Shown here in pieces: positions 32,706-43,096 of a DNA stretch of 64,000 nt. The DNA is taken from assembly GCF_022568815.1 (NCBI RefSeq), contig NZ_JAKZHX010000001.1, positions 1 through 64,000 on the forward strand, given 5' to 3'. The position numbers and the translations under genes were made by a program. This DNA is from Undibacterium paludis. GTDB taxonomy: Bacteria > Pseudomonadota > Gammaproteobacteria > Burkholderiales > Burkholderiaceae_D. The notes beneath the pieces were generated by a model. That model was not told where the DNA came from and searched no databases. It saw nothing but the letters and a program-made list of their open reading frames with translations. Within the stretch, counting starts at the first letter, position 1; each line of letters starts with the position of its first letter.

Positions 32706-33638
32706 ATGACAACGAGCAATAATATTTGCCTGTATGCGAACGGGCTGTTCGGACGTAATGATGACAAGGTCAATGCAGCACAATGCGCCGCATTACAGGA
32801 ATCAGGGTTCACCACGGTCATCATCTGGGCCCTGCATGTGAACCAGCAAGGTAACCTGCAATTTGCTGACGACCCTGTCGTGAGAGATGGCGTATTGTCC
32901 AGCCAGTATCTGTACATGGGCAACTGGATCAACAAGCTCAAGTCCAGCGGCAGTGTCAATCGCGTATTGATCAGCCTTGGTGGCTGGGGTGTGGGGGACT
33001 TCAGCAATATGACCCATTTACTGAAAACCACACAAGGGAAGCATGAGCTGACACAGAATTTCCAGGCCATGGTCACGGCATTGCCAATAGACGGTTTTGA
33101 TTTTGATATGGAAGAATGGGACAACCCCGGTATTACGAACAAAGAATATGTCAATACCATCGCCACGCTGACCAGCATGCTCAGCGGCATGGGTGGCGGC
33201 ATGACAATCACATATTGCCCTTACAATCATCAGGCACACTGGCTTACAGCTCTTGAGCAGGTATACGCCAAAGCTAATGGCAGGCAACTGGTTAGCGCCT
33301 ACAATCTGCAATGTTATGCAGGCGGCACAGGCAACGAACCGAGCGCGTGGGCAGAGACACTGCAGAGTGCGAAAACTACGACAGGCATCAGTGCGCCTGC
33401 CGCTTTCATCATCCCGGGCTTTGGATGTTACAACGCTGCCGACAGTTCGGGCTTGTGCCCTTCCGACGTACAGACGACGTTCGCTCAACTGGCAAACAGC
33501 ACCCCTGGTATTACTGGTGGTTTCATCTGGAATTCTGGCAACATCTTTTCCAGCGAAAACTCCAATGGCTGCAACGGCTCCCCCATGACGGCAAGTGCCT
33601 ATGCGACAGCAATGGGCAAAGGATTGAACGACGGCTGA
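32706..33638 (+). CDS. GH18-family glycoside hydrolase (chitinase-like)
   Basis: 310-aa TIM-barrel protein. The GH18 catalytic motif D-x-x-D-x-D-x-E is complete: D129, D132, D134 and the acid E136 in DGFDFDMEEW. VLISLGGWG (about 89-97) is the upstream SxGG motif. Family reaction: hydrolysis of chitin or related GlcNAc polymers. A strong GGAGG site precedes the ATG. There is no Sec or Tat signal peptide and no carbohydrate-binding module; the N-terminus MTTSNNICLYANGLF runs straight into the first barrel strand. So it is either cytosolic, released by another route, or a lectin-like relative. A strong terminator follows. Its AT-rich surroundings differ from its neighbours. Confidence 0.88.
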   Translation: MTTSNNICLYANGLFGRNDDKVNAAQCAALQESGFTTVIIWALHVNQQGNLQFADDPVVRDGVLSSQYLYMGNWINKLKSSGSVNRVLISLGGWGVGDFSNMTHLLKTTQGKHELTQNFQAMVTALPIDGFDFDMEEWDNPGITNKEYVNTIATLTSMLSGMGGGMTITYCPYNHQAHWLTALEQVYAKANGRQLVSAYNLQCYAGGTGNEPSAWAETLQSAKTTTGISAPAAFIIPGFGCYNAADSSGLCPSDVQTTFAQLANSTPGITGGFIWNSGNIFSSENSNGCNGSPMTASAYATAMGKGLNDG

Positions 33639-33668
33639 ACACTGCTGATGACAGTGAGCATGCATCAT

Positions 33669-33705
33669 TGACGACACTTGGAAAATCGGGTGTCGTCATT
33701 CTTTT
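33669..33705 (+). terminator. Intrinsic terminator of the GH18 gene
   Basis: TGACGACAC (33669-33677) pairs perfectly with GTGTCGTCA (33690-33698) around a 12-nt loop, followed by TTCTTTTT. It lies 31 bp after the GH18 stop. Confidence 0.85.
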
Positions 33706-34296
33706 TCTGCATCTCAAAAAACTACCAAACTGCATATCGCCGAAAATAAAAATCAAAAAAATAATGTGTATCTGCTGACCACAAGTGAGTTTTTTTGCGA
33801 CTGAATGACACGACACGCAACATGTTTCATTACCGTGCACATCACCGCCGTCGATTCGTTCGTCCGCACAGGATGACATACTGCCCAGGTTGCAGGACGA
33901 CTTACTCGCAAAACAAGGGCACAAAACGGCGACACAACACAGGGAAACAACCGGGCATCCTGCAAGCATTTGAGAGTGAGCGGGCATGGACCTGGGCAAC
34001 GCCATTTACCCCCACCTGACATCAATCCTCACACAATTCTGGTTTGATTCATTGAAGCCCTCTTGGTCCTGCGTTTGTCGCAGCGCAGCATCCGATTAAC
34101 CGCCCAGAAACGACCTGTCAATCCGCAGAAACCGCAAAATTGTCTCTAAATTGTATTTTCGTTGTGGTTTTACAACGCTTTTAGACATTTCTTTTTCGTA
34201 ATAAAAGCTTCCATTTTCCCTATGAATCATCCCTGTCAGAAACGTTTTTTGAGGTAAAAAATTGAATGTTTCCTCAAATTCAATCATTTAATGTTT

Positions 34297-34325
34297 TTGA
34301 CACATTGTCAAATAATGTTAATAAT
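34297..34325 (+). promoter_or_regulatory. Sigma-70-type promoter for the S53 protease leader
   Basis: TTGACA (34297-34302), a 17-bp spacer, and AATAAT (34320-34325) match the consensus at 11 of 12 positions. The -35 is also half of a perfect palindrome, TTGACA-CAT-TGTCAA (34297-34311), which a regulator could use. Transcription would begin near 34332, some 365 nt before the protease ATG. Confidence 0.65.
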
Positions 34326-34331
34326 CAGCTT

Positions 34332-34698
34332 CCATTACAAACAGATTACAAAAAGACACACTGGTATTAGATAAAAAATATAAACAAATAAAACACAAAG
34401 GCGAAGTAACTGTCTTGCATGCAGCATCGCATGCAAGTGGTCTTACTATTGCCCAAAGAATTCCTATGCGGCAATTTGATCAATTGTTTGCATAGTAATA
34501 AGGAAAACCTGATCGGGTGTCGCGCAGCCCGCCTGGGTAATCCATAGGTGAAGGGGAAAACCGGCTCAAACAAGCTGGTTTTTTTCAAATGACCTGTCCC
34601 GGCAGGGTGCACTGAGGGGATGGGTGACTGAGCGGTCGGTGTTACAAAAAATGACATTGACCACATTCTTCGCATTTTAAAAATCAGGGAGAGAAGTA
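34332..34698 (+). ncRNA. Long structured 5' leader of the S53 protease gene (possible attenuator or sRNA)
   Basis: From the predicted start to the ATG the RNA can form a perfect 9-bp hairpin (CTTGCATGC 34414-34422 with GCATGCAAG 34429-34437), a second stem (ATTGCC with GGCAAT at about 34449-34476), and a complete intrinsic terminator at 34557-34585, more than 110 nt before the ATG. A terminator placed between promoter and gene suggests transcription attenuation by a ligand, protein or RNA. Alternatively it ends a separate small RNA of about 250 nt. I could not match it confidently to a known riboswitch class. The boundaries are predicted, not observed. Confidence 0.45.
34557..34585 (+). terminator. 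Intrinsic terminator inside the S53 protease leader
   Basis: AAAACCGGCT (34557-34566) pairs with AGCTGGTTTT (34573-34582), ten pairs with one G-U, around the 6-nt loop CAAACA; the run of T continues to 34585. No plus-strand coding gene ends nearby: the GH18 gene has its own terminator about 890 bp upstream. So it must act on the leader transcript. Confidence 0.75.
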
Positions 34699-36987
34699 AT
34701 GAGTATCAGTTGTAACTTCAAATTATTGCCTTTGGTCGCTGTGGCCATGGCAATGGCGGCCGGCACTGCGCAAGCAGAACAATGGGTGTCGACCGAAACC
34801 AAAGCAACCAGGGTGCTGAGTACGGCAACAACACCTACCGGTGTTGTCACCATGATGCAGGCAGGTTCGCCAACACATGTGGCCGTATCACTCAAGCTGC
34901 GCAACAAGGCAGACCTGGACGCATTGACGACTGGCATCATGAGCGGCAAAAACGTCAGGACAATTTCGAATGCCGAGTTCATGTCGCGTTATGCGCCAAC
35001 GGCAGCACAAGTCCAGGCCGTGGTTGATCACTTGAAAGCCAGCGGCTTTATCAACATCAAGGTAGCGGACAACCGCATGCTGGTTGAGGGTGATGGCACG
35101 GTCGCGTCGGTCAAGAGCGGTTTCAACACCGACTTGCATAGCTACGTGGTTGATGGTCGCTCTGTGCATGTGAATCTGTCAGATGCACAAGTACCTGCAT
35201 CACTGTCAGACACAGTCTTGGCGGTGCACGGTCTGCAAACCATGCATCTGGCACGTACTCACCTTGTCAGGCCAAAAACCAATACCCTGGCAAGCACAGG
35301 ACATAATCCGACTGAGTTCTCAGCCATCTATAACGCGACCGGCCTGCCTAGCGCCGTAAATGCCACTATCGGCATCATCACGCAAGGTAGCATGACGCAA
35401 ACGATTACTGACCTGAACACTTTCACCAGCCGCGCCGGTTACCCAGCCGTGAACGTGCAAACCGTTACTGTCGGCGCTGCCAGCTCTGACACAGCCGGTG
35501 TCGGTGAGTGGAACATGGATACGCAAGATGCACTGGCTGCTGCCGGCGGTACCATCAAAAAGATGATACTGTACACAGCAACCACCTTGAACGATGCTGA
35601 CCTGACTGCCACATTCAACCGCGCAGTGACAGACAATGTCGCCAAGTCCATCAACGTCTCTCTGGGTGAATGCGAGAACGATGCCAAGGCATCGGGCTTC
35701 ATGGCAACGAACGACCAGATATTCCAGACTGCGGTTGCACAGGGCCAGACTTTCTCTGTCTCTTCCGGCGACTCCGGTGCGTATGAATGCGGTGGCCCAG
35801 GTACTTCACAAAGCTACCCGTCCGTATCCCCATACGTGATTTCTGTTGGCGGCAGTTTGCTTAACACCAATGGTTCGACACGGATTTCTGAATCGGTATG
35901 GTCATGCACGAGCGCATCAAGCTGCCAGCAAAGCGCCAACGGCGGCGCCGGCGGCGGACCATCCCTGACAACGAATGCACCTAGCTGGCAAATCAATTCC
36001 GGCGTTCTGGGTTCTTCTACCAAACGCGGCACGCCAGATATCTCATTTGATGCAGACCCAGCCAGTGGCGCTCTGGTGATCGTCAATGGTTCCAACCAGC
36101 AGATCGGTGGCACCAGTCTGGCAGCACCGATCTTCACCGGTTTTTGGGCACGTGTGCAATCGATGAATAACAACAGCCTGCCTTTCCCGGCTGCAGCTAT
36201 TTATCAAAAAGCTGCCAGCACACCTGGCATGTTCTATGACATCACCTCCGGCAGCAACGGTGGTTATACTGCCAAAGCCGGCTGGGATTATGCCAGTGGT
36301 TATGGCAGCCTGAACATGGCTAATTTTGCAGCGGCAATGGGTTCCACACCTCCACCACCAAATGTACTGGTCAAGGATGTGCCTATCACTGGTATCAATG
36401 TAGCTACCGGTGGTAACCTGGTCTACACTTTTGCTGTACCTAGCGGCGCGACCAACCTGACATTCAAAACATCGGGTGGCACAGGTGACGCCGATCTGTA
36501 CGTGCAAGTGGGTTCTGCACCGACCACATCCGCCTATCTGCAAAAGTCTGACGGTTCCACTACGACAGAAAACATCACCATTGCTGCACCAACAGCAGGT
36601 ACTTACTATGTACTGTTGAATGGTTACACGGCAGCGAGCGGCGTCAGCCTGGTAGCCAGCTACCAGACCGGCACTCCTGGTAATGTATTGTCGAACGGTG
36701 TACCGGTGAATGGCATCACCCTGGCATCCGGTGCTTCGCAGGTCTACACCTTCGTTGTACCAGCCGGCCGTCCAACCCTGACCATCAAGACTTCCGGTGG
36801 TACAGGCGACGCCGATCTGTACGTGCAACTGGGTTCTGCTCCAACGACTTCTTCTTACCTGAAGAAATCCGATGGCGCCAGCACCAATGAAACCATCACC
36901 ATCAATTCACCAGCAGCCGGTACTTACTATGTACTGGTCAAGGCTTACAGCGCCGTCAGCGGCGTCAGCCTGGTGGCGACAGACTAA
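34699..36987 (+). CDS. Secreted sedolisin (S53) protease with two PPC domains
   Basis: 762-aa serine-carboxyl peptidase. Signal peptide 1-26 (ending GTAQAEQ); activation propeptide about 30-195; catalytic domain about 205-550 with E270 and D274 in GEWNMDTQDA and nucleophile S473 in GGTSLAAPIF (the GTS motif). Two homologous pre-peptidase C-terminal (PPC) domains follow (about 558-655 and 660-762); both contain TSGGTGDADLYVQ. Their DNA repeats are also close. Sedolisins are endopeptidases usually active at acid pH and self-processed; PPC domains are normally removed after export. It is probably secreted to degrade protein in the medium. A GGGAGAGAAG site precedes the ATG. It has an unusual long regulatory leader and a strong terminator. 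Confidence 0.92.
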   Translation: MSISCNFKLLPLVAVAMAMAAGTAQAEQWVSTETKATRVLSTATTPTGVVTMMQAGSPTHVAVSLKLRNKADLDALTTGIMSGKNVRTISNAEFMSRYAPTAAQVQAVVDHLKASGFINIKVADNRMLVEGDGTVASVKSGFNTDLHSYVVDGRSVHVNLSDAQVPASLSDTVLAVHGLQTMHLARTHLVRPKTNTLASTGHNPTEFSAIYNATGLPSAVNATIGIITQGSMTQTITDLNTFTSRAGYPAVNVQTVTVGAASSDTAGVGEWNMDTQDALAAAGGTIKKMILYTATTLNDADLTATFNRAVTDNVAKSINVSLGECENDAKASGFMATNDQIFQTAVAQGQTFSVSSGDSGAYECGGPGTSQSYPSVSPYVISVGGSLLNTNGSTRISESVWSCTSASSCQQSANGGAGGGPSLTTNAPSWQINSGVLGSSTKRGTPDISFDADPASGALVIVNGSNQQIGGTSLAAPIFTGFWARVQSMNNNSLPFPAAAIYQKAASTPGMFYDITSGSNGGYTAKAGWDYASGYGSLNMANFAAAMGSTPPPPNVLVKDVPITGINVATGGNLVYTFAVPSGATNLTFKTSGGTGDADLYVQVGSAPTTSAYLQKSDGSTTTENITIAAPTAGTYYVLLNGYTAASGVSLVASYQTGTPGNVLSNGVPVNGITLASGASQVYTFVVPAGRPTLTIKTSGGTGDADLYVQLGSAPTTSSYLKKSDGASTNETITINSPAAGTYYVLVKAYSAVSGVSLVATD

Positions 36988-37065
36988 GGTAGTACAGCCA
37001 AGCATGGATGCAGCAGCCTGAGGCATGACAGTAAAACCAAAGGCTGATGCAGGCTGATCAAAAAC

Positions 37066-37098
37066 AAAACCCCCGGCGATTCATCTGCCGGGGGTTTT
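37066..37098. terminator. Strong bidirectional intrinsic terminator
   Basis: AAAACCCCCGGC (37066-37077) and GCCGGGGGTTTT (37087-37098) form a perfect 12-bp stem with a 9-nt loop. It ends the S53 protease transcript and, read the other way, the four-gene c-di-GMP operon on the minus strand. Confidence 0.9.
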
Positions 37099-37152
37099 GT
37101 TCTTTGTGCATAGGCTGATGCCTGTCAGCTTGCATTCGGTTTACATCGGTCA

Positions 37153-37443
37153 TCAATCCGCCCCCAGGTCCTGTACGAAACGGGTAGTCAGGTGCAGTTG
37201 CTCAGGTCTGACACCTAGCTGGGCACAAATGATGGTACGTAGCTGGTCGAGCACTATGTCACTATTGACGCGCGGGCGTTGCAAACGATTCAGTTCGATC
37301 ACAACAAAGTCACGAAGCTTGCCCACCGTGTCCAGACCAGATGCTGCATCGTCGCGAATGCTGATATCAAAATTTCTTTCCACAGCGATGATCAATTCAA
37401 CGGTATCCAGACCCATGATATGTATCAGTAACTCATCCAGCAT
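37153..37443 (-). CDS. Acyl-carrier-like protein with its halves in permuted order
   Basis: 96 aa. From memory of E. coli AcpP, residues 11-54 (GLDTVELIIAVERNFDISI then TVGKLRDFVV) match helix II to the C-terminus of ACP (SLDTVELVMALEEEFDTEI), and residues 61-96 (DQLRTIICAQLGV...RFVQDLGAD) match the ACP N-terminus up to D35. The chain thus covers a whole ACP but starts after and ends before the phosphopantetheine serine; that Ser is Gly11 here and the stop codon follows GAD directly. It cannot be modified in the normal way. Stop codons flank the frame on both sides, so this is not a simple frameshift. No ribosome-binding site is obvious. It follows the GGDEF-EAL gene by 56 bp as the last gene of that operon. 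Confidence 0.6.
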   Translation of the reverse strand: MLDELLIHIMGLDTVELIIAVERNFDISIRDDAASGLDTVGKLRDFVVIELNRLQRPRVNSDIVLDQLRTIICAQLGVRPEQLHLTTRFVQDLGAD

Positions 37444-37499
37444 ATATTGTAATGGTCAAACCAGCACGATGTCTGTGTCAGATGCAGTCACTTCATATA

Positions 37500-39398
37500 T
37501 CAGGCATGTTTTCCCTGGCTATGCGTCTTGCGCAGAAATCCCGGCACGTCCGCTGCCGGCATCGGCTTGGCCAGGAAATAACCTTGTATGCTGTCACACT
37601 GTACTGAACGCAAAAAATTCATCTGCTGCTCGGTCTCTACCCCTTCAGCGATGACGGAAAGGCCCAGACCGTGGCCCAGTGCAATAATGGCCGTGATGAT
37701 GGCCTCATCTTCACCGTCGCCCGGAATGTCGCGTACAAAGCTGCGGTCGATTTTCAGTTCATTGATGGGGAAGCGTTTGAGGTAGGCCATTGACGAATAG
37801 CCGGTACCAAAGTCATCAATTGACAGACGCAGGCCGCGGGCACGCAATTGTGACAGCAGTTCGATATTGGTACCGACATTTTCCATCAATTGGGATTCGG
37901 TGATTTCCAGTTCCAGCCGGCTGGCGTCAATGCCGGCTGCAGCGATTTCAGCAAAAATTTCTTCGGCCAGGTTAGCGTTCTTGGTTTGTCTCGGTGACAG
38001 GTTGATCGATACCTTGAAATCGCGCAAACCCAGCTCTTCCCATACGGCGACCTGCATGCAGACGGTGCGTGTGACCCACATGCCGATCTCATTGATAAGA
38101 CCGGTTTCTTCGGCGATAGGGATGAACTCCACCGGACTGACCGAGCCAAGCTGCGGATTGGTCCAGCGCAACAAGGCTTCAAACCCGACTATGCGGTTGT
38201 GACGCAGCAGCAACTTGGGCTGATAGCATAGTGATAATTCATTATTCTGTATGGCTTTTCTGAGACTGGTTTCCAGGGCCAGGCGTTTTTTTGCATGCTG
38301 GTTCATTTCCTGACGGAAGATTTCGTAAGTGTTTTTGCCTTTGGCCTTGGCAGCATACATGGCGGCATCGGCATTGCGTGTCAATGTCAGCGGGCTGAGC
38401 CTGTCATCGCCACTGCTGCTGACACCGATGCTGCCAGTGACAAAAACTTCTTGCTCGGCAATCTCGAAAGGCGCTGCCAGCGAAAGTATGACTTTTTGAG
38501 CGACGGCTTCACCAGTGCGACTACCTGCCCTGGATTGCAGGATCATGGCAAATTCGTCGCCACCGATACGGCAGACGATATCGGCATCGCGCAAGCTGTT
38601 CGACAAACGATCACCAACAGCCTTCAGCAATTGGTCACCCTGATTGTGCCCCAGCGAATCATTGACGGCCTTGAAATTGTCGAGATCGAGCAGGAGCAGT
38701 TCCAGTTGCCCTCCGAACCTGGCTACGGTCACCAGCGAATGTGCCAGGCGCTCGTTAAAAGCGTGACGGTTAGGCAAGCCGGTAACAGCATCAATATGGG
38801 CGAGGTAGGTCAGGTGCTCTTCTGCCTGCGCCACCGCCTGACGCATGCGTGCCACCATCAGGTAACCGATGCCCAGGGACGCAAAGATCACACACAGGGT
38901 GATCAGTGCATACATGCTGAAGCGGCCATACAAGGCATCCAGTGAAGCACGCATGACGACCTGTGCAATCGGCTTGCCATCGAGCTCAGCTGTCTGCACC
39001 AGGTCCAGGTAATTCCAGTGGAATTCATGGCCATTGAGCATCAGTGCCGGTGTCGGCGCCTGCAAGGCATTACCCTTGCCACGCGAATAATAGGCAAAGG
39101 CCGGTCCTGGTTCAATAAAGATGGCGGCGGCAGCGATGCTGGAAGAGGCATTCAGGGCGGCCAGGGTCTCTGTCGCCGTCTTGACATCCCGAAAAACAAT
39201 GGCAGCCGTAATATTGGAGCTGACGATGCGCCCCTGCACCTGCATGTCTTCGATAAAACTCTGGCGCAAGGATAAGAACTGCACCACAATCAGCAGCACG
39301 GCGGCACACAGCATCGCCACGCATAACGCCAGCAAGGCTGAATTGGCAGATTTGCCACTCAACCCTGTCTGCTGCTCCTCCCTGATGTTCACCACCAT
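37500..39398 (-). CDS. CHASE8-like GGDEF-EAL protein (c-di-GMP synthesis and degradation)
   Basis: 632 aa, inner membrane. A helix at about 20-45, a periplasmic domain about 46-150 (QGRIVSSNITAAIVFRDVKTA, the CHASE8-type start seen in YfiN) and a second helix about 160-180 lead to GGDEF (279-283, intact, RIGGDEF) and EAL (407-409 in GFEALLRW, intact, with DDFGTGYSS). Both diguanylate cyclase and phosphodiesterase activity are possible. It lies downstream of YfiR- and TonB-receptor genes, so its periplasmic domain is probably bound and inhibited by the YfiR-like protein. AGGGTG precedes the ATG. It is followed by the ACP-like gene. Confidence 0.93.
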   Translation of the reverse strand: MVVNIREEQQTGLSGKSANSALLALCVAMLCAAVLLIVVQFLSLRQSFIEDMQVQGRIVSSNITAAIVFRDVKTATETLAALNASSSIAAAAIFIEPGPAFAYYSRGKGNALQAPTPALMLNGHEFHWNYLDLVQTAELDGKPIAQVVMRASLDALYGRFSMYALITLCVIFASLGIGYLMVARMRQAVAQAEEHLTYLAHIDAVTGLPNRHAFNERLAHSLVTVARFGGQLELLLLDLDNFKAVNDSLGHNQGDQLLKAVGDRLSNSLRDADIVCRIGGDEFAMILQSRAGSRTGEAVAQKVILSLAAPFEIAEQEVFVTGSIGVSSSGDDRLSPLTLTRNADAAMYAAKAKGKNTYEIFRQEMNQHAKKRLALETSLRKAIQNNELSLCYQPKLLLRHNRIVGFEALLRWTNPQLGSVSPVEFIPIAEETGLINEIGMWVTRTVCMQVAVWEELGLRDFKVSINLSPRQTKNANLAEEIFAEIAAAGIDASRLELEITESQLMENVGTNIELLSQLRARGLRLSIDDFGTGYSSMAYLKRFPINELKIDRSFVRDIPGDGEDEAIITAIIALGHGLGLSVIAEGVETEQQMNFLRSVQCDSIQGYFLAKPMPAADVPGFLRKTHSQGKHA

Positions 39399-39453
39399 AG
39401 CTGTTCACCCTGATCCTGTGCCTGCATGCCCTGCTCGCTCTGTCTGATGTCCC

Positions 39454-40017
39454 TCACCACACTTTACGCGCTAATCGCAATAATTTGGAGCTGATGGTAA
39501 AACCCGCCTGGCGGGCGCTGCTGGCATTGACTTCAAAGACAAAACGGTTATTGTCGACCGCGATGGCGATCATGGCTCCTTCATCAATCGCACGCTCACG
39601 GTCGGAAATGGTCAGTACACTCAGGCCTTCCAGTTTTTTTCTGATCTGCGCCGGACGCTGATGCTCATCGTCGTCCAGGTACAAAACCTTACAGCTTTGC
39701 AGGCTGTCTTGCTCGGCCAGCAATTTGAAACGCAATTCATGATTACCCACAGTCTTTTTCTGTAACTGTATCAAGGCATCGCTGACCGGGCCAGACTTCA
39801 ATGCGCACAGGGTCAATACTTCATTGCTGGCCAGACCAGCCACCGGCCATTCAGTAAACAACATGAAATTGTAGATCAGTGCTGCTTTCAACTGGTTTTC
39901 CGGTGCTTGCTGCGCCCGTGCATGGTTCGCCATCGTGACGAACAGGCTCAGCACACCAAATAGCAAGGGCACGAATACCTTTGCCCGGACTGGTCGGAGC
40001 AGCGCTGACGTAGTCAT
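39454..40017 (-). CDS. YfiR-family periplasmic protein (DUF4154)
   Basis: 187 aa. Signal peptide (FVPLLFGVLSLFVTMANHARAQQ, cleavage about residue 36). The mature part shows the YfiR/DUF4154 blocks: LKAALIYNFMLFTEWP, LCALKSGPVSDAL, SCKVLYLDDDE, GLSVLTISDRERAIDEGAMIAIAVDNNRFVFEVN, SSARQAGFTISSKLLRLAR. YfiR represses the diguanylate cyclase YfiN through its periplasmic domain; here the partner is likely the CHASE8-like GGDEF-EAL protein 55 bp downstream. The ATG lies 8 nt past the TonB receptor's TGA, so the genes are cotranscribed. A TTG start at 40029 is an alternative. Confidence 0.9.
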   Translation of the reverse strand: MTTSALLRPVRAKVFVPLLFGVLSLFVTMANHARAQQAPENQLKAALIYNFMLFTEWPVAGLASNEVLTLCALKSGPVSDALIQLQKKTVGNHELRFKLLAEQDSLQSCKVLYLDDDEHQRPAQIRKKLEGLSVLTISDRERAIDEGAMIAIAVDNNRFVFEVNASSARQAGFTISSKLLRLARKVW

Positions 40018-40025
40018 ATGCCCGC

Positions 40026-42062
40026 TCAAAACTTGTACGTGAGTTTGAGGCGATAACTGCGCCCGTCCTGCTGCAAGCTGTCTTGCAGATGTTCTGGTCC
40101 TCCTGGCACACTGTAATGACGGTCAAACAGGTTATACACTCCGAGCGAGATTTCAGTATGATCGAGCCATTGTGCAGAAACCAGGCTGAGATTGCACAGC
40201 GCATAACCACCGGTGTCACCACGCAAGGTCTTGCGTCTGGCAACATACTGTCCCTCGACAGCCAGTCTGGCACGCAACAGAGCGAGGGGAGAAGACAGGT
40301 TGAGCTTGGCCAGGTGCGCAGGTGAATTCACCACTTCCTGGCCTGTCATTTCGTCAGTGACACGTTGCCAGCTATAGCTGCTGCGCAGGTGTGCGCCCTC
40401 ATTCCACAGACGCTGATATTCCAGCTCGACGCCACTGGCGCTGACGCGTGAGACATTCCTGAACACCAGCAAACCATCACGCTCATCGAGCTCTTGCGAT
40501 ATCAGGTCAGACACGGTATTGCGGTAAGCCGACAGGAGCAGGCGGCTGCTGGCAGACAATTGCTGCTCCCACGATAGTTCACGGGTCAGTATGTGTTCTG
40601 GCCTCAGCATGGGATTGATCTTTTGCCCGCCTTCTCCAGGCAAACTGTAATATAGCTCGAAAGCATTTGGCGAACGAAAGGCCTTGCCGACAATACCCTT
40701 GACAGTGGTATTGAGCCAGGGTTTATAGATCAACGCTACACGTGGACTGACGGCCCCAGAGCTAAGGCTGTTACGGTCATAGCGCAAACCGGCATTGAAC
40801 AGGAGGTCATCACGCAGACTCCATTCGTCCTGCAGGTAGAGGCCGAGGCGATTGGCGCTGCGCGCATCATTGAGCAAAACCTGCGGTTGCCCTGGCTGAG
40901 CACCTGCGGACTGCAAGTATGTATTCTGGCTGAACTGTTTCAACTGTGCATCACGCTGATACTCCATGCCAGCCAGCAATTTATGCTGTTTGAAGCGGGT
41001 CGTCACCAGATTCAGTTCACCGCCCCACCAGGTCGAACTGCTGCCATCCTCATTGACCATATCAGGCGCACTATAGATATAGGTACCGGCAAAGTCATGA
41101 CTGCCCCAGAACAGCCTGGTGCTCAGACGCGTCTGTCCTGACAGGGCTGTATTATAGGCAAGGGCAATATTACTCTGCCGGTCCAGGGTAGCAGAACGCG
41201 GATCGTTAAATACCTGACTATACGAGGCGGTCGGTATGCCCTTGCTACGCTCGATATGTGCTGCCGACAGAGTGAATGCACCGAGATCCGCGCGAAAGAA
41301 TAATTGATCAAGCTGCTCATGATCAAGTCGGTGGGCAATACCATGATTATTATCGGGTGTATCGTACTCCGCAAAATACAGGTCACGGCCATCACGCCGG
41401 TAACTGCTGGCTGACAACAGGAACTCCGCATCACCGGCCTTGCCATCAGACGTCGTGCCGCTCCAGCCATAACTGCCACGCAGACTACGTTCACCAACAC
41501 TGCCGACGCTGACACTGGCAACCGGGCCAGCCATGTCGCGTCCACGTTTGGTGATGACATTAATGACGCCAAAGAAGGCATTGGAACCATACACCGATGA
41601 ACCTGGCCCGGGCACGTATTCCACCCTGTCGATCACATCGAGGTCAAGGATGAATTCACGCCCCAGAGATGCCTGGTCATACACAGAATCATTGTTGCGA
41701 TTGCCATCGACCAGCAATAGAAACCGTGTATCGTAATCACCCGGCCGCAAAAAACCACGCCCGCCCAGATAACTGTAGTTGCGATCATTGCTTGCGTACA
41801 GCCCCCGTATGCTCGACAGTAATTCTGCCAGGCTGCGCCAGCCGTACAATTTGATATCGGCAGCCGTGATCACACTGACCGACGAGGGCGCATCCGCCAG
41901 CGCCTGCGGGAATTTGGATGCAGTCGATATCTGCATAGCCAGTAGTTGCTCTATCGACAAATCCGTCAGATCATCATCAGCCAGGCTGGCGGCATGTACC
42001 GTGGTGCCAGCAACGCACAGACACAACAACAAGCAGGGAGTACGCAAAGGAATGTGGAACAT
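40026..42062 (-). CDS. TonB-dependent outer-membrane receptor
   Basis: 678 aa. Signal peptide 1-24; an N-terminal DDLTDLSIEQLLAMQIS stretch (TonB box / plug start); plug domain about 45-150 (APSSVSVITAADIKLYG, GYLRPGDYDTRFLLLVDGNR-type, VDRVEYVPGPGSSVYGSNAFFGVINVITKRG); then a 22-strand barrel ending in the usual aromatic C-terminus (KLTYKF). Ligand unknown. It is the first gene of an operon with YfiR and a GGDEF-EAL protein, an arrangement that suggests ligand- or transport-dependent c-di-GMP signalling. The start at 42062 gives a typical signal peptide. Confidence 0.93.
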   Translation of the reverse strand: MFHIPLRTPCLLLCLCVAGTTVHAASLADDDLTDLSIEQLLAMQISTASKFPQALADAPSSVSVITAADIKLYGWRSLAELLSSIRGLYASNDRNYSYLGGRGFLRPGDYDTRFLLLVDGNRNNDSVYDQASLGREFILDLDVIDRVEYVPGPGSSVYGSNAFFGVINVITKRGRDMAGPVASVSVGSVGERSLRGSYGWSGTTSDGKAGDAEFLLSASSYRRDGRDLYFAEYDTPDNNHGIAHRLDHEQLDQLFFRADLGAFTLSAAHIERSKGIPTASYSQVFNDPRSATLDRQSNIALAYNTALSGQTRLSTRLFWGSHDFAGTYIYSAPDMVNEDGSSSTWWGGELNLVTTRFKQHKLLAGMEYQRDAQLKQFSQNTYLQSAGAQPGQPQVLLNDARSANRLGLYLQDEWSLRDDLLFNAGLRYDRNSLSSGAVSPRVALIYKPWLNTTVKGIVGKAFRSPNAFELYYSLPGEGGQKINPMLRPEHILTRELSWEQQLSASSRLLLSAYRNTVSDLISQELDERDGLLVFRNVSRVSASGVELEYQRLWNEGAHLRSSYSWQRVTDEMTGQEVVNSPAHLAKLNLSSPLALLRARLAVEGQYVARRKTLRGDTGGYALCNLSLVSAQWLDHTEISLGVYNLFDRHYSVPGGPEHLQDSLQQDGRSYRLKLTYKF

Positions 42063-42463
42063 GATCGGTTCTTTAAAGAGTGCCAGCACCCGCACCGGGC
42101 TGCGGATGATACCTGTTGCGAGGGACTATTCATATTGCCTATGAACAAACTAGCACTCAATATTGAGGCCGTCAAACTTGTATGGCGTGAGGGCAACAGG
42201 TACTTGCTTTTATTCCTGAAAGCATAGCGGGACAAGTACAATTAATTCCTGCACGGAAATATTCACGGAAATATCTTAGTCGCCTGCCTGCGTCTGCCAT
42301 GTGTCGCAAGCTGTTAAACCATCCGTTTTTGCACCGCACCGATAAACTGATTCTGTACGGGCCCCATACTGGCCCTGTACTGCTGTTTTTCGTTCATCCC
42401 AACTCACATGTAAAATGGCGCATTCAGGCTCACCACATCCAGCCTGCACAACAGGAGAACCAG
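42063..42463. other. Divergent intergenic region (TonB receptor / LysE)
   Basis: No gene seen; longer readings of both flanking frames enter it without ribosome-binding sites. It should hold the promoters of the receptor operon and of the LysE gene. Confidence 0.4.
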
Positions 42464-43096
42464 ATGGAACACTACGCTTCGCTGCTCGGCATCTGTGCCG
42501 CCCTGACCGTTGGCGTCATCAGCCCCGGTCCCAGTTTTGTCATGATTGCCCGCACCGCCGTTGCCGCCAGCCGCAATGAAGGTGTCGCCGCAGCCATAGG
42601 CATGGGCTGTGGCGGCGTACTGTTTGCCATTGCCGCCCTGCTGGGCCTGCAAGGCCTGCTGCTGGCCGTGCCACTGCTGTACACCGTGCTAAAAGTGGCG
42701 GGGGGCATCTATCTTGCCTTTCTCGGCTTCAAAATCTGGCGTGGTGCCAGCCTGCCCTTGCAGATTGCCGCCGCTACCGGCAACCTGACCGGCAGAAACA
42801 GCCTGTCCAAATCGTTGATACTGGGATTCACCACCCAGGTCAGCAATCCCAAGACATCCATCGTTTACGCCAGCGTGTTTGCCGCCTTCATGCCCGGCAG
42901 CCAATCCATCAGTTTTGATGTCTTGCTGATCTGCACCGTTTTTGTCATAGAAAGCAGCTGGTATGCCATTGTCGCCGTCGCCCTGTCTTCTGCACGCCCG
43001 CGTACCACCTACCTGCGCTACAAGCACTGGCTGGACCGTGTGGCAGGTGGCGTCATGATGGCACTTGGCATCAAGCTGGTGGCATCGGCGCGCTGA
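42464..43096 (+). CDS. LysE/RhtB-family amino-acid exporter
   Basis: 210-aa inner-membrane protein with six hydrophobic segments. The family signature GVISPGPSFVMIARTA (about 17-32) is followed by a Gly-rich helix, and GFTTQVSNPKTSIVYASVFAAFMP (about 123-146) marks the second half. Family members export amino acids such as lysine, homoserine or threonine by proton antiport. Start at 42464 with AGGAGA upstream. The GNAT gene begins 35 bp later and is probably cotranscribed. Confidence 0.92.
   Translation: MEHYASLLGICAALTVGVISPGPSFVMIARTAVAASRNEGVAAAIGMGCGGVLFAIAALLGLQGLLLAVPLLYTVLKVAGGIYLAFLGFKIWRGASLPLQIAAATGNLTGRNSLSKSLILGFTTQVSNPKTSIVYASVFAAFMPGSQSISFDVLLICTVFVIESSWYAIVAVALSSARPRTTYLRYKHWLDRVAGGVMMALGIKLVASAR

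Follow-up and report, generated by a model that had tools for sequence, protein, structure and literature searches.

A Circularly Permuted Acyl Carrier Protein of Undibacterium paludis, Opened at the Position of the Missing Prosthetic-Group Serine

Acyl carrier protein (ACP) is a hub recognised by many enzymes and regulators, including SpoT. Helix II of AcpP is described as the site read by SpoT and by fatty acid synthesis (FAS) enzymes (PMC3340395), the alpha2-helix of ACP is termed the recognition helix (PMC12469350), and D35, S36, L37, D38 and L42 are placed among the AcpP residues most perturbed by FabB (PMC7966745). The first of these sources also reports that phosphopantetheinylation is impossible in the S36T laboratory mutant of Escherichia coli AcpP (PMC3340395). 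This study concerns a gene on the minus strand of a 64,000-nucleotide stretch of Undibacterium paludis DNA (assembly GCF_022568815.1, contig NZ_JAKZHX010000001.1, positions 1 to 64,000), the whole of which is referred to as the window. Its product, the window protein, is a complete ACP whose two halves are swapped, whose chain termini lie precisely where the prosthetic-group serine should be, and from which that serine is absent. Among the matches listed for searches of the open-licence literature, which excludes most subscription papers and all preprints, none dealt with a natural permuted or serine-less ACP.

Both profile searches and structure-chain searches split the window protein into two pieces. 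PF00550 matched it at 30.1 bits (cut-off 20.8) in two partial stretches, and TIGR00517 matched it at 57.3 bits (E 1e-15), likewise in two stretches and below the cut-off of 70.45. Query residues 12–47 aligned with ACP residues 40–75 and query residues 60–96 with ACP residues 2–38 (best PDB chain 6n3p_G, E 1.6e-8), and both pieces matched the same PDB chains. By sequence, the helix order is II-III-IV-I and not the I-II-III-IV of ACP.

Rotations of the chain were scored with a hidden Markov model (HMM) of 58 ordinary ACP frames, taken from contig loci of the genome searches; the AcpP gene of the window's genome occupies two of its rows, and the AcpP of locus L005 another (loci and genomes are cited by L and G handles). 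In the native 87-residue chain, HMM positions 39–74 fell at residues 3–38 and positions 5–37 at residues 55–87, and position 38, the phosphopantetheine serine, was the sole interior HMM position skipped. The best of all rotations was a cut at 50/51 in the linker, which gave one match of 78.4 bits, compared with 32.6 bits for the best native piece. The single-domain score rose on rotation in all five short proteins tested, the others being L005 (104.5 vs 52.5 bits), L065 (79.5 vs 42.5 bits), L066 (61.4 vs 36.4 bits) and L124 (53.7 vs 34.4 bits). The serine position alone was skipped in four of the five, the second match of L066 ending at position 35. After rotation, Gly stands in the serine column in all seven intact short forms, that is, the window protein and six relatives. 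A sequence-only reading of this DNA had proposed, by comparison with AcpP, that the protein is a full ACP in circularly permuted order with the serine lost at the seam, and this proposal was upheld: the rotation test and same-order relatives support the permutation, the alignment with AcpP-type models and chains gives two swapped pieces that become one domain after rotation, and the serine is replaced by Gly on one side of the seam, while the chain ends on the other side at the Asp that precedes it.

The predicted structure contained four helices (best pLDDT 80.2, pTM 0.71), and VIA-align returned HAD hydrolases beside ACPs at similar Z. Once folded, the helices would form the four-helix bundle of an ACP and bring the N-terminal Gly and the C-terminal Asp together where the cofactor would otherwise be attached. 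In PHROGs, phage ACP families were matched by the window protein and by two longer relatives. An identity as Cmr8 was rejected, the weak PADLOC matches of the window protein (E 0.0012) being absent from the three relatives scanned and taken as chance.

The frame at 37443–37153 on the minus strand is open over 96 codons and represents a real gene, but the first nine of its 96 residues are probably untranslated. Because the relatives begin M-G-L-D, the start was placed at the inner ATG (37416), and translation from this codon would probably give a protein of 87 residues (MGLDTVEL...FVQDLGAD*). The probable coding sequence, with its start assigned by homology to full-length permuted-order relatives, therefore occupies 37153..37416 including the stop. 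The in-frame upstream extension of nine codons (37417..37443, minus strand) has no counterpart in the relatives and no deciding ribosome-binding site; inspection of the sequence gave no clear ribosome-binding site before either ATG (37416, 37443). On the minus strand, the first half (37303..37410, residues 3–38) corresponds to ACP model positions 39–74, which comprise helices II, III and IV; a linker that is variable in the relatives (37255..37302, residues 39–54) joins ACP helix IV to helix I; and the second half (37156..37254, residues 55–87) corresponds to model positions 5–37, which cover helix I and the loop leading to the Asp that precedes the absent Ser.

Six intact short relatives were found, all with the permuted order, an M-G-L-D start and a D end at the missing serine, to which one adds Q. 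These are L005, from an Alphaproteobacteria metagenome-assembled genome (44% identity over residues 10–96); L065, from G061 in the order of the window (32% identity); L066, from the Gemmatirosa kalamazoonensis plasmid NZ_CP007129.1 (Gemmatimonadota; 32% identity); L124, found by DNA pattern in G509, also in the window's order; and L152 and L153, from the genus of G061. Residues M1, G2, L3, D4, V6, E7, L8, E13, F16, T30, V31, L84 and D87 are invariant across the seven intact short forms. A DNA pattern that demanded MGLDxVEL yielded only L124 of the six relatives, and L005 was found with patterns that included FVQDLGAD, which selected for its end and not its start. Among the 60 contig loci in the search that gave L005, only L005 was collinear, full-length and stop-free. 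The match at L012 ran across a stop and was rejected, and the pattern matches L118, L120, L125, L132, L133 and L134 were dropped as chance frames once translated.

For L065 and L152, dN was 0.254 and dS was 3.15; since dS is saturated, the ratio (about 0.08) can serve only as an indication of purifying selection in this one orthologue pair, which belongs to a lineage other than that of the window, and the other two orthologue pairs gave no usable whole-gene dS. The ACP-like proteins of this genus are 53–66% identical to L065, and the MFS protein encoded upstream is 89–90% identical in the same genomes. Judged by these comparisons, the gene is evolving fast under constraint in the genus of L065. 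A short-form copy in another genome of that genus (G747, L130 around 6795) lies at the same site behind the MFS gene and is frameshifted after about 20 codons.

With no serine at the site, the window protein would not act as a phosphopantetheine carrier in the usual way; it probably imitates an ACP without bearing the cofactor or serving as a carrier. Helices II, III and IV come first and helix I with its long loop last, the chain being opened at the cofactor serine, and the cofactor site would be vacant and unable to receive phosphopantetheine. We take the kept residues of the helix II face to be, in AcpP numbering, L37, D38, V40, E41, L42 and E47, together with D35 as the terminal Asp. Retention of this face favours a docking mimic: the protein would present it as a docking surface to an ACP-handling enzyme or regulator and, once docked, would compete with or modulate that partner. 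We give this carrier-dead mimic about an even chance of being correct. In longer relatives the two parts of the split domain lie on either side of a hydrophobic segment. Two points weigh against the mimic, namely that the window protein has Ile at the M44 position and that it is less acidic.

The longer relatives include L126 (G817, an uncultured Pirellula; 233 residues), L123 (G575; 222 residues) and L151 (G1296; 230 residues), in which the same first half is followed by an FY.(L/I)R segment, a hydrophobic stretch and the last half. They end in DLGAN, DLGLS and DLGLD, respectively, and L151, which was found solely via its middle domain, still begins MGLDGVEL and ends DLGLD*. L135, L136, L137 and L138, from Sphingobium, Novosphingobium and Asticcacaulis plasmids, have the long layout without the seam. 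Kyte-Doolittle peaks above 1.6 were present in all seven long forms and in none of the seven short forms. Scans of two long forms against Pfam and of four against NCBIfam gave only ACP models above or near the cut-offs, and no NCBIfam model matched L135. The plasmid search matched 28 records, of which six were fetched; among these, L140 (Subdoligranulum) was rejected as an ordinary ACP, and L139 (Persicobacter) has an MGLDTVALVM start and a chain of 81 residues before its stop. The long form of pUT1 from Sphingobium indicum UT26S (L135:5962-6654) had an equal score on ten Sphingobium/Sphingomonas plasmid records, of which pUT1 alone was opened.

Three further observations were made on the long forms. 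L126:1501-2199 exceeds the cut-off of the NCBIfam ACP model NF002148 (71.5 vs 71) without a carrier serine, its ends giving Gly and Asn, so annotation pipelines may call a serine-less long form an acyl carrier protein. The final 60 residues of L151, L126 and L123 hold a second T(L/I).DL-like, helix-IV-like motif ahead of the half that contains helix I, an arrangement resembling a fusion of two permuted units; this motif is weak in L123. L151:5760-6449 matches phrog_27464, a family of unknown function, over residues 3–68, which extends beyond the ACP half (E 2.8e-7).

In these long chains, half-ACP segments flank a large insert with a hydrophobic stretch, as might be expected if the ACP fold were a mere scaffold in a subunit with a structural or regulatory role, which may form a domain-swapped oligomer and whose partner does not handle ACP. 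The sequence-only reading had suggested that the protein may act as a domain-swapped binding protein, which is a possible reading. The variation of gene contexts by lineage is also consistent with a scaffold, as is the finding of an ordinary ACP frame near the gene in only one (L005) of the 16 stretches scanned. However, the residues that are kept are those that ACP partners read, though ancestry could explain them, and the L005 gene closes an acpP-fabF cluster. We consider a scaffold unlikely, though not strikingly so, and retain the docking mimic as the working interpretation.

The genes around the window's gene and around its relatives were compared. In the window, the order of transcription is a TonB-dependent receptor gene (40026–42095), a YfiR-like gene (39454–40029), a GGDEF-EAL gene (37500..39398), all on the minus strand and given as context only, then the ACP-like gene and a strong hairpin. 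The hairpin (37060..37105) has T/A runs on both sides and a fold z-score of -5.41 (37050–37120, minus strand), and may be a terminator shared with the convergent gene at 34699–36987; it was not among the results of a simple terminator scan. A weak promoter-like site upstream of the ACP-like gene (37446..37475, minus strand) is not significant, one being found against 0.7 expected by chance. The convergent gene encodes what we take, by reading, to be an S53-type protease, with no NCBIfam match, and its 3' end consists of two tandem copies of about 100 codons (36361–36977; 73% DNA identity).

The sequence-only reading had found it unexpected that the gene is cotranscribed with c-di-GMP and receptor genes. 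The arrangement agrees with that description, but among 42 genomes of the same genus, three had an EAL match at E <= 1e-150, and two of these, G021 and G040 (EAL 70% and 66% identical), keep the TonB, YfiR and GGDEF-EAL genes without the ACP-like gene, which is therefore absent from both of the same-genus genomes that hold all three operon genes; in G037 the EAL gene alone is present, at 48% identity. Because G021 and G040 keep the operon without it, the linkage of the gene to the c-di-GMP/receptor operon is probably incidental. The same reading had suggested a slice of a tandem ACP, which is a plausible origin, but no further ACP frame was found within the window, and a search of the window's own genome yielded only two matches besides this gene: the ordinary AcpP, which has DLGADSLDTVEL and lies on a different contig, and a weak one (E 0.37) within a 520-residue frame.

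Other contexts differ. The L005 gene lies 5 bases behind a guanylate kinase gene, in a same-strand run of acpP, fabF, YicC and gmk; this run (L005:757-5261) opens with ordinary acpP and fabF and closes with the permuted gene, as if the latter had been made from that AcpP (65%). In G509 the relative forms a unit of one gene enclosed by attC-like repeats (13 core copies), and its open reading frame (ORF; 628–891) lies directly between GTTAGGTG and the next CCTAAC. This locus (L131:1-8000, G509 contig 6) resembles an integron cassette array, with 12–13 attC-like repeats and small ORFs; the permuted ACP is one of its cassettes, and two other ORFs were scanned without a Pfam match. No attC-type repeats were listed for 33000–43000 of the window, and by that test the window's gene is not integron cassette cargo; among the matches listed for integrons and ACP in the literature, none was relevant. 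On pUT1, a conjugative Sphingobium plasmid, the long form and an IS6100 transposase are neighbours in the annotation, and in the genus of L065 the gene sits behind an MFS transporter gene. A long form in G817 (L147:2490-5488), on a 7.7 kb contig with repeats, has a zeta-toxin-like gene (Pfam) on one side and a small opposite-strand ORF on the other; the small ORF is presumably RelE-like, as judged by eye. Outside the genus of L065, no recurring neighbour was seen in the contexts looked at.

Queries and thresholds were not the same in all distribution searches, and divergent members escape exact patterns; the following counts are therefore lower bounds. The window query matched only its own genome among 215 sampled genomes of the family (E <= 1e-6) and two of 98 genomes, its own included, at E <= 1e-8. 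The DNA pattern matched eight of 399 genomes in the window's order, three of them with chance frames, two of nine handles, and four of 246 genomes in the phylum of G817, three by chance. As queries, L065 matched four of 43 genomes of its family, L005 one of 190 genomes of its class (itself, E <= 1e-10), L124 one of seven genomes of its genus (itself), and the middle part of the long form one of 274 genomes of the window's class (E <= 1e-5). A profile of four short forms matched 379 of 398 genomes and was swamped by ordinary ACPs; among the matches listed for it, all but that of the window start at position 3 and end at 39–73. None of 21 viral loci had an MG[LMIV][DE]xV[ED]L start (117 loci scanned), and later viral scans were also empty. 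The matches in cyanophages P-HM1 and MED4-213 were ordinary ACPs; these two records were opened and the other 24 phage records were left out. Taken together, these searches indicate that the permuted ACP gene is rare, sporadic and self-contained. Absence from all relatives had been named beforehand as a finding that would speak against the frame: the other 214 sampled family genomes gave no match at E <= 1e-6, but full-length permuted relatives occur in distant genomes.

The presence of the gene in only one sampled family genome, the intact flanking operon of G021 and G040, where the gene is missing, and the frameshifted related copy in G747 are compatible with a recently acquired gene that, in the window's lineage, has no present function and is decaying. 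However, the frame is intact and 44% identical to a distant relative over residues 10–96, and there is constraint in the genus of G061; decay is decidedly unlikely.

Rotated L005 is 65% identical over 72 columns to the AcpP of its own locus, above all other ordinary ACPs compared, and at best 47% identical to the permuted forms. The other six short forms are about equally close to each other and to ordinary ACPs, barring the three same-genus orthologues, and the window protein is 39% identical to the AcpP of its own genome. In a tree built from 64 rows over 79 columns, one permuted clade was not rejected (p-AU 0.666) but was not displayed either; L005 was nearest its local AcpP, the columns were few, and several permuted rows were very long-branched. 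L005 may have arisen by an independent permutation of its own acpP, or it may be a slowly evolving copy from a single old family. More broadly, there may be a rare and sporadic class of natural ACP permutants whose chain ends replace the cofactor site, serving as docking inhibitors or regulators or as Gly/Asp-based carriers, with the permutation perhaps having arisen repeatedly; this generalisation is possible but rather doubtful.

A carrier of the last kind would, after Met removal, carry or receive a group at the old cofactor site, on the amine of Gly or on the carboxylate of the last Asp, independently of phosphopantetheine. The M-G start and the Asp at the seam in all seven intact short forms, and the similar ends (DLGLD, DLGAN, DLGLS) of three of the seven long forms, are in keeping with such chemistry, but the chain does not always finish with the same residue (D, N, S, D-Q), Gly and Met also offer an easy way to begin a helix, and no modifying gene recurs beside the gene in the contexts looked at, so that a chain-end carrier appears very unlikely. 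For an artefact, whether a chance frame, a frameshifted ordinary ACP or an assembly join, no supporting point was found and the probability is practically negligible, because relatives in separate assemblies, including a complete plasmid record, share the order and the seam, which agrees with the earlier statement that no frameshift explains the swapped halves, and because the window lacks a second ACP frame.

The docking mimic, if true, would provide a ready-made probe or inhibitor of ACP contacts, with the recognition helix kept and the cofactor site deleted, and an unusual circular permutation placed at an active site. AcpP (TIGR00517/PF00550) shares with the window protein both sequence halves, the helix II recognition residues, an acidic pI and the predicted helices, whereas the window protein has its halves swapped, lacks the DSL serine and scores below the TIGR00517 cut-off (57.3 < 70.45). 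The S36T mutant of AcpP is carrier-dead, as is predicted for the window protein, but is unpermuted and engineered. The phage ACPs (P-HM1 PHM1_027 and MED4-213 CPMG_00087) match in the helix II–IV half but have the ordinary order with the DSL serine. The pUT1 protein SJA_RS20660 (WP_007685994.1, annotated as 'hypothetical protein') resembles the window protein in having split ACP-like halves at both chain ends, and its subgroup differs in a large middle part with an FYRLRR motif and a hydrophobic stretch and in the absence of the M-G and D seam.
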